Below, in pieces: positions 45,123-48,863 of a stretch of DNA of 64,000 nucleotides (its first letter is position 1; each line of letters starts with the position of its first letter). The translations under genes were made by a program, and so were the position numbers. This stretch comes from Mesorhizobium sp. WSM4313 (GTDB taxonomy: Bacteria; Pseudomonadota; Alphaproteobacteria; Rhizobiales; Rhizobiaceae). The stretch covers positions 124,001-188,000 of the forward strand of contig NZ_NSFT01000003.1 in NCBI RefSeq assembly GCF_002294725.1. Direction: 5' to 3'. A model generated the notes under the pieces. The model was not told the origin of the DNA. It was given only the letters and a program-made list of their open reading frames with translations, and did not search any database.

Positions 45123-46319
45123 TCAGACCTTTCGTACCGCGTCTAGAATCCTCCGGGCGAGCCGTATCAGGGCAACGTCGCTGCCGGAAGGGCCGAGCAG
45201 CGAAAGACCGAAAGGCGCGCCATCGACGGAGCCGATCGGCAAGGTGATCTGCGGAAAGCCCGAAAGACCGGAAAGGCACAAGAGATGCAGCGCCCTTTCG
45301 CGGTAGGCCTGGAACTGTTCCGGCGTGCTGGCGGCGAGCGGCGCCGCGCCGGGAACGGTGGGCAGGACCAGAAAGCCGTTGTTGCCGAGCAGCGCCCCGA
45401 ATTCGGCCCGGAACGCCAAGCGGCGCGCGGCTTCGGTGGTGGCAGTTTTGGCATCGATGGTGCGGCCGAAGCCGAAACGCTCCTCGACGCCCGGGCTGAG
45501 CCGGCCGCCGGCCGAGATCCAGGGGCCATGCTCGCGCCAGGCCTCGAAGGCCTGCAGGCGGCGGAAGCACCAGTAAAGCTCGTCCGGGAAAGAAGCGAAG
45601 GCGTATTCGGTCTCCACCGGCTGGCCGATGACGCCGGCCGCCAACGCCTTTATGCGCGCATATTCGGTGGCTTCCGCCGGACCCATGACGAAAGCGTCAA
45701 GCCAGCGGATCGACAGCGGCCGGTTGAGCGGGTGCTGGTGCGGATCGCGGCCGAGCAAAAGCTTGCCGACGGTCTCATAGGTCTCGATGTCGTCGGCGAA
45801 CCAGCCGAACGTGTCGAAGCTCGATGCTAGCTTCATCGCGCCGTCGAGCGGGATGCGGCCATGGGTGGTGCGCAGCCCGATCAGGCCGCAGAAGCTTGCC
45901 GGCGCGCGGATCGAGCCGCCAGTGTCGGAGCCGGTGGCGATGTTCGCCAGCCCGCCGGCAACAGCGGCCGCCGAGCCGGAGGAGGAGCCGCCGGTGACGC
46001 GCTCGGGCGCGGCGGGATTGATCGGGTAGGGGAAATGCGCGTTCTGGCCGAACAGCGAGAAGGCCAGCTCGTCGGTCTGGGTCTTGCCGACGAATCGCGC
46101 GCCGGCGTCGAGGATCGTCTGCACCGCTTGCGCCGTGCGCGAGGCAGCGTGCGCCTCCTCGAATTTTTGCGGGTTGCCGCAGCCTGTGCGGTAGCCGGCA
46201 ACGTCATAGATGTCCTTGACGGCCAGGCGAAGGCCTGCGAGCGGGCCCAATTCCGCATTCGCCACAGGCATTTGGCGCAGATCGAGGAAGGCGTTGAGCG
46301 GTGCTTGAGTTCCTGGCAT
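45123..46319 (-). CDS. Amidase signature family protein
   Basis: 398 residues. The Ser-cisSer-Lys triad of the family is visible: Lys35 in 'LAVKDIYDV', serines 112-114 in 'GGSSSGSAAAVAG', and Ser136 in 'GSDTGGSIRAPA'. The protein is short for the family (often 450-500), as in AtzE/indoleacetamide hydrolase-like members and bacterial mandelamide-type amidases. The substrate amide is unknown. It is divergent from the ornithine decarboxylase leader and upstream of the LysR gene. Confidence 0.9.
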   Translation of the reverse strand: MPGTQAPLNAFLDLRQMPVANAELGPLAGLRLAVKDIYDVAGYRTGCGNPQKFEEAHAASRTAQAVQTILDAGARFVGKTQTDELAFSLFGQNAHFPYPINPAAPERVTGGSSSGSAAAVAGGLANIATGSDTGGSIRAPASFCGLIGLRTTHGRIPLDGAMKLASSFDTFGWFADDIETYETVGKLLLGRDPHQHPLNRPLSIRWLDAFVMGPAEATEYARIKALAAGVIGQPVETEYAFASFPDELYWCFRRLQAFEAWREHGPWISAGGRLSPGVEERFGFGRTIDAKTATTEAARRLAFRAEFGALLGNNGFLVLPTVPGAAPLAASTPEQFQAYRERALHLLCLSGLSGFPQITLPIGSVDGAPFGLSLLGPSGSDVALIRLARRILDAVRKV

Positions 46320-46394
46320 CGTTCGATATCCGGATACAGTGCGGCAAGCATTGTTCGATGCCAGAAATTTTACAACCTGCGCTTACGATTTTTA

Positions 46395-46423
46395 TTGATT
46401 GTGAAACCCTTCGCTCCTATATG
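46395..46423 (+). promoter_or_regulatory. Promoter of the ornithine decarboxylase gene
   Basis: TTGATT (46395-46400) and TATATG (46418-46423) are exactly 17 bp apart and match a vegetative sigma factor promoter well. Transcription would start near 46430, leaving a leader of about 430 nt. Confidence 0.75.
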
Positions 46424-46429
46424 GCGCTT

Positions 46430-46861
46430 GCCCAAAGTCGCACGTGCCTGTGGGTGTCCGCCGATCCTCGAATGGTGAGGGCAATCGGTAAGGTAACTGG
46501 AGCCAACCCCTCCAGTCGGTCAGTGGCCAACCACAAGACCGAGGACACCTTGAAGCAACGACGGTGCGGGCCTTTCTGGTTCTCTTCCGGTTGTCCAAAG
46601 ACCGGGGTTACTAAAGAGGCACACCTTCATTGCCGGCAGTGCGGACGGGGTCTCCCATCCAAGCCAAGGCAGACAAAGCGAACCGAGGCCGGGCAAGGCC
46701 AAGGTTCACCGCCGCGAGACGGCGATTCGTGGTTCCGGGGTCTCCACCGGCTGGTTCCATGGATTTTCCGTCCCGCCTTTGTCCACCGCGAGTTCGCGAG
46801 GCTGAGCGCCCGCGTTCCGCAGCCTTTGTGCGCGCCGAAAGGCGCCAATGGAGAGACCTCG
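46430..46861 (+). ncRNA. Long structured 5' leader of ornithine decarboxylase (speF-type element)
   Basis: No convincing protein gene fits the 542 bp before the decarboxylase. The leader starts with a closed four-way junction: P1 ggtgtcc/ggacacc (46453-46459 with 46543-46549). It encloses hairpin 1 (ccgat-cctc / gagg-atcgg, 46461-46488), hairpin 2 (ctgga/tccag, 46497-46515) and hairpin 3 (tcggtc-gtgg / ccac-gaccga, 46516-46542). Near the gene, gcgcc-gaaa-ggcgc (46832-46845) is a GNRA-capped hairpin just before the ribosome site ggagag. Alphaproteobacterial ornithine decarboxylase genes are known to carry a conserved leader called the speF motif; the structure seen here is direct, the family assignment is from context and memory. 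Confidence 0.75.
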
Positions 46862-47995
46862 ATGGCCACTCAGCGCATCCTTGATTTCCTCGCCACCCGA
46901 CGTCCGAACGGCCCTTGCCTCGTCGTCGACCTCGATGTCGTGCGCGACAATTTCCGCGCCTTCGAGAAGGCGTTGCCCGATTCCAAGATCTACTATGCGG
47001 TGAAAGCAAACCCGGCGCCGGAAATCCTGCGCCTGCTTGCTGCGATGGGCTCGTCCTTCGACACCGCATCGGTTGCCGAGGTCGAGATGGCGATGGATGC
47101 CGGCGCGCCGGCGGACCGCATTTCCTTCGGCAACACCATCAAGAAGGAGCGTGACATCGCACGCGCCTACCAACTCGGCATTCGCCTCTACGCGGTGGAC
47201 TGCGTCGAAGAGGTCGAGAAGATCGCGCGTGCCGCTCCCGGCTCGCGCGTGTTCTGCCGCGTGCTGACCGACGGCGAAGGCGCGGAATGGCCGCTGTCGC
47301 GCAAGTTCGGCTGCGAGCCGGCGATGGCCGTCGACGTGCTGCGTCATGCCAAGGGCCTCGGCCTCGATGCCTATGGCGTGTCGTTCCATGTGGGCTCGCA
47401 GCAGACCGACCTGTCGGCCTGGGATCGCGCGCTGGGCGACGCCAGGAAGGTGTTCGCGACGCTCGCCGAGGAAGGCATCGTCTTGAAGATGGTCAACATG
47501 GGCGGCGGCTTCCCGACCCGTTACCTGAAGGACGTGCCGGCGGCCCAGGCCTACGGCCAGGCGATCTTCTCGGCCCTGCGCAAGCATTTCGGCAACGCGC
47601 TGCCCGAGACGATCATCGAGCCGGGACGCGGCATGGTCGGCAATGCCGGCGTGATCAAGTCGGAAGTCGTGCTGATCTCGAAGAAGGCCGACAACGACAA
47701 TGTGCGCTGGGTGTTCCTCGACATCGGCAAGTTCGGCGGTCTCGCCGAGACCATGGACGAGGCGATCCGCTATCCGCTGGTCACCCGCCATGACGGCTCG
47801 GAGACCGCGCCCTGTGTGCTCGCCGGCCCGACCTGCGATTCGGCCGACGTGATGTATGAGAAGACACCTTATCCGCTGCCCTTGTCGCTGACCATCGGCG
47901 ACGAGGTGCTGATCGAAGGCACCGGGGCCTACACGACCACCTATTCGGCGGTCGCCTTCAACGGCTTCGAACCTCTCCGATCCTACGTGATCTGA
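46862..47995 (+). CDS. odc: Ornithine decarboxylase (alanine racemase-fold, type III PLP)
   Basis: 377 residues. PLP lysine is K48 in 'YYAVKANPAPE'; 'VSFHVGSQQTD' (the conserved His stacking on PLP), 'NMGGGFPTRYL', 'EPGRGMVGNAG' (phosphate binding) and 'GPTCDSADVMYE' with catalytic Cys325 follow, as in eukaryotic-type ornithine/lysine decarboxylases of Alphaproteobacteria. It makes putrescine from ornithine, which feeds the homospermidine synthase encoded at 23037. Some relatives also accept lysine. A long structured leader precedes it, and a GNAT gene follows after 100 bp. Confidence 0.95.
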   Translation: MATQRILDFLATRRPNGPCLVVDLDVVRDNFRAFEKALPDSKIYYAVKANPAPEILRLLAAMGSSFDTASVAEVEMAMDAGAPADRISFGNTIKKERDIARAYQLGIRLYAVDCVEEVEKIARAAPGSRVFCRVLTDGEGAEWPLSRKFGCEPAMAVDVLRHAKGLGLDAYGVSFHVGSQQTDLSAWDRALGDARKVFATLAEEGIVLKMVNMGGGFPTRYLKDVPAAQAYGQAIFSALRKHFGNALPETIIEPGRGMVGNAGVIKSEVVLISKKADNDNVRWVFLDIGKFGGLAETMDEAIRYPLVTRHDGSETAPCVLAGPTCDSADVMYEKTPYPLPLSLTIGDEVLIEGTGAYTTTYSAVAFNGFEPLRSYVI

Positions 47996-48095: not shown

Positions 48096-48863
48096 ATGGA
48101 ATACCTGACCAAATCGGCCTTCGCGGCCACTGAAATTGCCCCCTCGTCCGGACCGTTGGCTGAGCTTTTCTCCGCGGGGGAGAATGGCTCGACGGCAGCG
48201 CTTCTCGGCTCATTTTCTTACGGCGAACCGGTCTCCACTTCGCCTGAAAATGGGTTTGCGCCCTCCCTGGCCCTGCGGGCACAGGCTGGCTCGCGCGGCG
48301 CGCCGGACGAGGGGGCCGCCCAGGCGCCGGCCTTCGTCATTCTTGGCGAAGGCGCGGGCGACGTCGCGGCGCGCGAAGCGCTGCTCGACCGCGCCATGGG
48401 GCCGAAGCGCAAGAAGAAGTCATCCGAGAAGCTGCGGCGCGGCCGCCGGCCCTCGGAAGGCCTGGCCTTTGTCGCCCGCGATGCGTCGGGCGCGGTCGTC
48501 GGCACGGTGCGGCTGTGGGATGTGAGGTTGGGCGAGGGCGGTCCGGCAGCGCTGCTGCTCGGCCCGCTCGCGGTCGAGCCGGGATTGAAGAGCGGCGGCA
48601 TCGGCTCGGCGCTGATGCGGCACGCACTCGCCGAAGCGGCGCGGCTCGGCCATGGCGCGATCCTGCTCGTCGGCGATGCGCCGTATTATGGACGCTTCGG
48701 CTTCTCGGCCCACCGAACCGGGGCGCTTGCCATGCCCGGCCCCTATGAGCGGCACCGGCTTCTGGCGCTGGAACTGCAGGAAGGCGCGTTGGACGGCGCC
48801 AAAGGCACGATCAAGGCCGCCGGCCGCAAGATCAAAGGACAGGCGCTGGATTTCGTCGCCTGA
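48096..48863 (+). CDS. GNAT family N-acetyltransferase (YhbS-like) downstream of odc
   Basis: 255 residues; 'aagga' precedes the ATG. The C-terminal two thirds is a GNAT domain: 'GLAFVARDASGAVVGTVRLW', then the acetyl-CoA motif 'PGLKSGGIGSALMRHALAEA' and 'LVGDAPYYGRFGFSA', which is typical of the YhbS group. Residues 1-75 are low-complexity (Ala/Ser/Gly) and look unstructured; a start further in is possible. It is 100 bp after odc on the same strand, and this pairing suggests a link to polyamine or amine acetylation, not proven. Confidence 0.85.
   Translation: MEYLTKSAFAATEIAPSSGPLAELFSAGENGSTAALLGSFSYGEPVSTSPENGFAPSLALRAQAGSRGAPDEGAAQAPAFVILGEGAGDVAAREALLDRAMGPKRKKKSSEKLRRGRRPSEGLAFVARDASGAVVGTVRLWDVRLGEGGPAALLLGPLAVEPGLKSGGIGSALMRHALAEAARLGHGAILLVGDAPYYGRFGFSAHRTGALAMPGPYERHRLLALELQEGALDGAKGTIKAAGRKIKGQALDFVA

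Follow-up and report, generated by a model that had tools for sequence, protein, structure and literature searches.

What does a structured leader of 432 nt do ahead of an ornithine/lysine decarboxylase (ODC) gene in Mesorhizobium sp. WSM4313, and how are the two catalogued RNA families that lie within it related to each other? The window analyzed here, i.e., the whole stretch of DNA under study, comprises 64,000 nt, and all coordinates refer to it, on the plus (+) strand unless stated otherwise. The speF leader entered the literature in 2005, when it was proposed as a regulatory RNA with no ligand assigned, and ar45 (SmrC45) followed in 2007 as an sRNA; the functions of both are still called unclear in the available portions of PMC7717549 and PMC12403871. 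Earlier literature has described ar45 and speF either separately or as one locus (PMC2573895, PMC7717549).

Methods

The window was scanned with all Rfam models at their curated cut-offs, and the ar45 and speF leader models gave the only two matches reported in it. The Mesorhizobium alignment consisted of 79 rows, namely the window and 78 of 80 relatives; L020 and L025 were omitted because their upstream sequence was too short. The family alignment was composed of the window and 97 loci passing the core scores, while six loci failed, and L129 (a second copy in one genome) and L167 (no ODC) were omitted. Alignment A1 contained 53 loci less than 88% alike, minus the length outlier L166. The strand table was based on 176 of 178 loci, L091 and L187 having been dropped, and folding predictions were made for a set of 170 of the 176 leaders. 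For the test of pairing with the Shine-Dalgarno (SD) region, the 178 loci were reduced to 175 with a recognised core, then to 167 unique leaders, and finally to 162 in which a start codon was found.

Organization of the leader

The region from 46395 to 46861 was read from the sequence as a promoter followed by a 432 nt leader, with the ODC ATG at 46862. As had been proposed in the initial annotation, the promoter consists of TTGATT (46395-46400), a 17-nt spacer, and TATATG (46418-46423), and it is conserved in Mesorhizobium except for the last base of the -10 hexamer: TTGATTG and TATAT are invariant in the 79-row alignment, and the G found in the window at the sixth base of the -10 is common to fewer than 1 in 10 of these rows. 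A strict sigma-70 scan found no promoter (0.1 expected); the two hexamers match at 8 of 12 positions, and the scan needs 9. The predicted RNA start is 46430, and the ar45 model begins 7 nt past the -10. The distance from this start to the ATG is 432 nt, in agreement with the leader of about 430 nt estimated earlier, and the whole leader has a more stable fold than its shuffles (z -4.1). The minus strand had been described as open for more than 400 bp across the leader, which is not the case, as each minus frame has one or two stops in 46430-46861; a minus-strand ORF of 152 codons (46611-47069) extends far into ODC. On the plus strand, the frame of ODC is without stops over 46301-46862 in the window, and automatic annotation could lengthen the gene. 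Coding through the leader in this frame was rejected, since stops are present in 158 of 171 relatives. The ODC gene itself (46862-47995, +) is 93-99% identical to the 80 kept Mesorhizobium-like loci and about 80% identical to genes annotated odc2 in S. meliloti and Neorhizobium. It is followed by an N-acetyltransferase-like gene (48096-48863, +), and records of S. meliloti, Neorhizobium, and Thalassospira likewise have an N-acetyltransferase annotated behind ODC.

The first half of the leader (46430-46575, +) is an ar45 domain (RF02347), matched at 150.5 bits against a cut-off of 40 and over the full model, 1-148. It contains a four-way junction (+) formed by the stem 46452-46459/46543-46550 and by hairpins at 46460-46489, 46497-46515, and 46516-46542. 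A four-way junction at 46453-46549 had been taken for a real fold from the letters alone, and it is identical with that of ar45. The comparison with relatives that was proposed at the time, in which compensatory changes were to be looked for, speaks for the junction: on 98 Rhizobiaceae leaders, 90.6% of the cells of the ar45 fold are paired, compared with 33-46% in slid controls, and changes on both sides were found in 17 of 43 pairs. The three inner pairs of the first junction hairpin are paired in just 9-33 of the 98 rows of the same alignment. Outside the family, the junction insert is variable, with 5 to 239 nt between the conserved ar45 strands in clear cases. Two loci, L233 and L240, have 5 nt in place of the junction between 24-nt conserved ar45 strands, and the junction is thus dispensable for the element. 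The strands on either side of it are the near-invariant ar45 5' strand GCCCAAAGUCGCACGUGCC (46430-46448, +) and the ar45 3' strand (46555-46575, +), which has the layout GCAACGAC, a variable 4-6 nt, GGGC, and a pyrimidine tract.

The junction had originally been assigned to the speF motif, which is incorrect, as the Rfam speF model lies after ar45 with 9 nt between them. The speF leader (RF00518) is nevertheless present: the Rfam speF scan that had been suggested for the conserved alphaproteobacterial ODC leader matches at 46585-46732 (+), immediately 5' of the ODC gene (COG0019), with 86.5 bits against a cut-off of 37. Among 151 Rhizobiaceae genomes, ar45 was found in 130, and speF in 129 of those 130 and nowhere else. 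ODC (E 1e-100 or better) was found in 131 of the 151, and 128 of these 131 carry ar45, compared with 2 of the 20 genomes without ODC at this threshold; all three (ar45, speF, and ODC) are absent from 18. G241, G272, and G329 encode an ODC that is more distant (51-62% identity) and have no match to ar45 or speF. The two genomes with ar45 and without ODC at the cut-off are G269, in which a shorter ODC match follows the leader, and G333. The leader of the latter (L167) has both ar45 and speF with no ODC match after it and, from ORFs compared by eye, appears to lie immediately 5' of the N-acetyltransferase gene whose counterpart in the window comes after ODC; the locus constitutes a natural test of the role of the leader without its gene.

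ODC was located downstream in 99 of 100 fetched ar45 regions (99 genomes). In the order, 85 speF loci were found besides that of the window, and each of the 69 that were fetched has ODC downstream as well. A class-wide search with a model of the bridging hairpin (see below) covered 337 genomes and gave matches in 15, of which 11 lie outside the order; since just 12 candidates per genome were scored, no frequency is derivable from these counts. ODC was downstream in 14 of 14 of the class-wide loci other than the window. Phylum-wide, the same model matched 37 of 299 genomes, all in the class of the window, with 242 non-matching genomes unlisted and nothing firm to be said on other classes. Between the ar45 3' strand and the speF core, 175 of 176 leaders have a spacing of 51-62 nt. 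We conclude that ar45 and speF are one element, the two halves of a single ODC leader.

Pairing between the two domains

The two halves are joined by a helix between the ar45 3' strand and the speF core (the GUUACUAAAGAGGCACACCUUCAUUGC region, 46606-46634, +). In this arrangement, designated state B, the segments GCAA, GGUG, and GCCUUU of the ar45 3' strand pair with the core, and hairpin H1 (46587-46605, +) forms the tip of the bridging stem; in A1, 5 of 5 counted H1 pairs are double-changed and 93.5% of cells are paired. For the bridging helix itself, 94.4-96.3% of the cells are paired in the 52 diverse leaders of A1, compared with 44-56% for slid strands, and 61 cells are double-changed compared with 16.9 in shuffles, with 0 of 500 shuffles as high. 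The joint changes of ar45 strand and core include GGUG:CACC, GUAG:CUAC, GUAA:UUAC, GAAC:GUUU, and GGAC:GUCU. When one genome per family was taken from 20 families, native combinations were better than permuted ones by 1.47 kcal/mol (z -4.55), and 0 of 400 permutations were as good in every draw. Nearly the same helix was recovered unaided by RNAalifold, and it holds in loci that were found later (GUAG/CUAC in L267 and GUAAG/CUUAC in L277). A test on sister pairs gave 17 to 4 in its narrow version (p 0.007) and 18 to 13 in its wide version (sign p 0.47, Wilcoxon 0.025). The bridging positions hardly vary within the family of the window, and the support for the helix comes from other families.

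The bridging helix is part of neither Rfam model: GGUGC is left unpaired in ar45, and in speF the core is paired with itself. It probably corresponds to the long stem-loop with bulges, about 80 nt in length, that Corbino et al. described in 2005 (PMC1273637). Two further contacts between the domains were examined. Long-range pairing of ar45 GUGCCU with speF AGGCAC was rejected, as AGGCAC changes to AGGCAA, AGGCGA, or AGGCUU while GUGCCU stays constant. In state B, CGCAC (46439-46443) of the ar45 5' strand is predicted by folding to pair with GUGCG (46639-46643); covariation was looked for between these segments and none was found, one CGCGC/GCGCG double change being set against at least two misfitting leaders.

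Alternative folds of the ar45 strand

In state A, the ar45 3' strand is paired with the ar45 5' strand in a closing stem made up of GCCC (46430-46433) and GGGC (46568-46571) plus inner pairs. As the closing stem and the bridging helix use the same ar45 3' strand, the two compete for it. The closing stem is nearly invariant in the 98 leaders; it is compensated in two loci, L215 (GUUC/GGAC) and L277 (CCGUC/GACGG). The second of these (G642) has a short leader of 226 nt and is the lowest-scoring class-wide match. According to folding predictions, an RNA of ar45 length has the closing stem formed in 169 of 170 leaders, and the full-length leader keeps it in 1 of 170 and forms the bridging helix in 132 of 170. 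In the predicted fold of the window, 4 of 11 closing pairs are lost as early as 46582, ahead of synthesis of the speF core, and all 11 bridging pairs are present once 46634 has been made. Equilibrium predictions place the bridging state 4.9 kcal/mol below the closed state at 46634 and 16.8 kcal/mol below it at 46650.

A pyrimidine tract, CUUUCUGG in the window (46572-46579, +), follows the closing stem and is likely the end of the short ar45 RNA. Among 170 leaders, the tract directly after GGGC reads CUUUCUGG in 85 and UUUUUUGG in 54. Its conservation is no proof of termination because the tract is also part of the bridging helix. A local-hairpin scan of the window for canonical terminators found none (0.6 expected); what would serve a transcription attenuator here is a closing stem with an adjoining pyrimidine or U tract.

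Short RNAs corresponding to ar45 have been published for several organisms. In S. meliloti, SmelC706/SmrC45 is given as 148 nt in a sequencing table (PMC2873474), a U-run terminator and a length of 181 nt have been assigned to the short RNA (PMC2780559), and it co-precipitates with Hfq (PMC2848018). The speF element was detected there as SmrC45, and the short RNA was called possibly independent of it (PMC2573895); a review places SmrC45 among the trans-sRNAs (PMC7143759). In Bartonella, ar45 is a neighbour of speF and was read as 'independently expressed' by northern blot (PMC7717549), and in Methylosinus it forms a transcription unit whose start and end have been mapped (PMC12403871). We infer that the published short ar45 RNA is an aborted ODC leader.

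The ribosome-binding region of ODC

A stretch of 20-32 nt that follows GUGCG is complementary to the SD region of ODC. In the minimum-energy fold, this anti-SD segment, GGGGUCUCCCAU (46647-46658, +), is paired with the ribosome-binding region at 46848-46860 (+), which includes GGAGAG (46850-46855) with A46852 bulged, and the unpaired probability of the SD is 0.20 in the full leader of the window. Pairing of disjoint sister leaders was better in the native combination in 57 of 81 pairs and in the swapped combination in 21, with three ties (mean gain 2.6 kcal/mol, sign p 5.6e-5). Examples of the helix are GAUAUUCCC : GGGGAAUAUC in L131 and CCCGUUCCAA : UUGGAACGGG in L099. When 34 leader windows and 19 gene windows were scanned in the same manner, peaks were found at the anti-SD segment (53 to 24) and at gene positions -20 to -1 (49 to 25), and the windows neighbouring the peaks were weaker. 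The opposite direction was obtained at p <0.05 for the leader windows -170 and -140 (26 to 45 each) and +80 (24 to 49, p 0.005) and for one gene window, -70 (27 to 48).

Permutation with one genome per family from 18 families gave z -3.3 for the SD helix, with a median p of 0 and 0.035 in the worst draw, and three control leader segments were null in the same analysis. Pairs outside the family of the window, taken alone, gave 18 to 9 (p 0.12), and a hold-out of 7 families gave the expected direction without significance (p 0.083-0.175 over nine choices); an earlier version of the hold-out, with 10 loci of which three were not new, had given 0.038. The pairing probability of the SD helix exceeds 0.5 in 74 of 160 leaders. 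In the family alignment, where this stretch is poorly aligned, from 3 of 9 to 81 of 93 rows pair per position, and at most 28 rows are double-changed. Translation attenuation had been among the roles suggested at the outset; it is plausible and gains support from the covarying SD helix, which had gone unseen in that first reading. An arm that would free the SD was looked for and none was found, a local hairpin after GUGCGG, tested for this role, showing no covariation.

Other structures are present between the anti-SD segment and the start codon. The conserved block GGUCUCCACC (46739-46748, +) resembles a second anti-SD, and its motif is present in 80 of 105 family leaders; as a second anti-SD, it gave 23 native to 12 swapped (p 0.09). 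In the last third of the leader (46672-46783, +), GACAAAG (46672-46678) and CUUUGUC (46777-46783) form a long helix, with 89-96 of 97-98 rows paired per pair. Two hairpins inside this helix (46680-46684/46703-46707 and 46687-46690/46697-46700, +) are paired in 61-94 rows and double-changed in 2-35 rows per pair. The long helix and the two covarying hairpins lie in the stretch that was left unassigned by Corbino et al. in the available part of their report. Just 5' of the SD, a GAAA-capped hairpin (46832-46845, +) is found in the minimum-energy fold, which agrees with the GNRA-capped hairpin noted near the ribosome site in the initial annotation; it is kept in Mesorhizobium and mostly gapped in the family alignment.

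Candidate signals

In-line probing had given no measurable binding of ornithine, lysine, diaminopimelate, putrescine, cadaverine, or spermidine (PMC1273637). The RNA probed in that work started at -400 relative to the A. tumefaciens start; across the family loci, the 5' end of the GCCC strand ranges from about -378 to -534 (-400 in S. meliloti L086), and its first bases may therefore have been lacking from the probed RNA. Homospermidine is absent from these six compounds, as far as the available text of that report goes, and a review (PMC10385936) mentions, in the part available, no commercial product of it. In S. meliloti, about 90% of the free putrescine is produced by Odc2, and putrescine is the precursor of homospermidine (PMC10385936, PMC13293326). 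A leader peptide starting at UUG 46630 was also examined and rejected, as the distance from UUG to the next conserved block is spread over the three frames (54, 46, and 44 of 144 leaders). No conserved short leader ORF of the SpeFL kind was found in these 144 leaders, the frame being unkept, and candidate leader ORFs range from 2 to 494 codons.

Proposed mechanism and alternatives

These results are best accommodated by a single ODC leader that probably works as a strand-exchange switch with two predicted limits on expression, early ending of the transcript and then hiding of the ribosome site. The first 146 nt would fold as ar45, with GCCC/GGGC closed beside the pyrimidine tract, as modelled, and some transcripts would likely stop there and yield the ar45 RNA of about 148 nt, for which short transcripts have been published. 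Once the speF core has been made, the ar45 3' strand is predicted to exchange the 5' strand for the core; here the covariation is observed and the refolding comes from prediction. The segment 46647-46658 would then pair with the ODC ribosome site, with which it covaries, and would presumably lower translation. The weakest step is the last, in which the balance might be set by a pathway end product, with homospermidine as one candidate, or by a protein, for instance Hfq.

A more specific form, in which a two-tier switch is set by homospermidine, its strand either closes a terminator-like domain or shuts the ribosome site, and ar45 is what remains of aborted transcripts, is on present evidence unlikely. 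If it were true, the two Rfam families would capture a single RNA at different moments of its refolding, in many alphaproteobacterial families, and released ar45 could relay a polyamine signal via Hfq.

Several other explanations were weighed against the proposed strand exchange. That ar45 has a promoter of its own and is an independent sRNA gene acting in trans, merely adjoining the speF leader, would fit the separate short transcript and its co-immunoprecipitation with Hfq in S. meliloti (PMC2873474, PMC2848018), its listing in PMC7143759, and the 'independently expressed' northern signal in Bartonella (PMC7717549). However, the presence of ar45 in 128 of the 131 ODC-carrying genomes and in 2 of the 20 others, its near-fixed spacing to the speF core, and the covariation of its 3' strand with that core make an independent gene very unlikely; ar45 may still have a second job in trans beside its role in the leader. 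Alternatively, a ribonuclease could release the short RNA by cutting the full leader in the linker (46572-46585), with no premature termination. The window has a pyrimidine-rich linker and no canonical terminator, as such cleavage would allow, but the occurrence of UUUUUUGG right behind GGGC, in 54 of 170 leaders, speaks for termination, as does the Methylosinus ar45 unit, which was derived from transcript-end mapping (PMC12403871), although cut ends are mappable too; cleavage in place of termination is regarded as improbable. Quite unlikely, in turn, is a static structure in which the bridging fold is the sole functional state and the closing stem is a passing intermediate without regulatory effect: in its favour, the closing stem is kept at full length in just 1 of 170 leaders and is mostly invariant, but the stem is compensated in L215 and L277, and the short RNA accumulates in cells, as published.

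The remaining alternatives concern the signal. Direct binding of a polyamine or precursor by the ar45 or speF domain, i.e., a metabolite riboswitch, would account for the near-strict link to ODC and the very conserved strands, and homospermidine was not among the compounds reported. On the other hand, six compounds of the pathway gave no measurable binding by in-line probing (PMC1273637), and double pairing duty may at least partly explain the invariance of the strands; a riboswitch is accordingly rated as somewhat unlikely, if less so than cleavage or a static fold. A leader-peptide attenuator sensing ornithine, translated for example from UUG 46630 after the SD-like AAGAGG, is hardly credible. 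By eye, AAGAGG lies about 8-14 nt 5' of a near-invariant UUG, UUGC is present in 52 of 52 rows, and UUG is 9 nt from GUGCG in 160 of 171 leaders; but the bridging helix, of which AAGAGG and UUGC are strands, accounts for both motifs, and neither the frame (54/46/44 over 144 leaders) nor the ORF length (2-494 codons) is maintained.

In the open-licence PMC literature, as far as its text was available, no description was found of competition for the ar45 3' strand or of pairing between the leader and the ODC SD. The unity of ar45 and speF, the covariation of the ar45 3' strand with the speF core, and the covariation of the leader with the SD are new. With the bridge and the SD helix both covarying in one RNA, each of the two functions can be tested by a few paired mutations. 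The reading as one RNA also suggests that the two Rfam families be merged, and the abundance of ar45 may report attenuation of polyamine synthesis and not expression of an sRNA gene.

Comparison with known systems

The speF leader of gammaproteobacteria is a leader-peptide attenuator in which ribosomes read a short ORF and sense ornithine. That of Salmonella (PMC6386406) is likewise a regulated leader before an ODC gene, whereas the leader in the window is without a conserved leader ORF. The spermidine riboswitch class (PMC10853860) is a polyamine-sensing RNA of bacteria, and it has been described as a variant of a SAM aptamer; in the window, by contrast, the curated Rfam scan gives only ar45 and speF. 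With ar45/SmrC45/SmelC706 (RF02347), the leader in the window shares a full-length match and the same four-way junction; ar45 has been catalogued and discussed as an sRNA, possibly trans-acting, and here it is the first domain of an ODC leader. With the alphaproteobacterial speF leader (RF00518, PMC1273637), it shares the gene and the core. In the available text of PMC1273637, the structure of the last 150 nt is not confidently assigned, whereas here an SD helix and covarying helices are placed there. Finally, the core is paired with itself in the Rfam speF model (GGCA/UGCC) and the ar45 strand lies outside that model, whereas in the leaders compared here it is the ar45 strand that covaries with the core.
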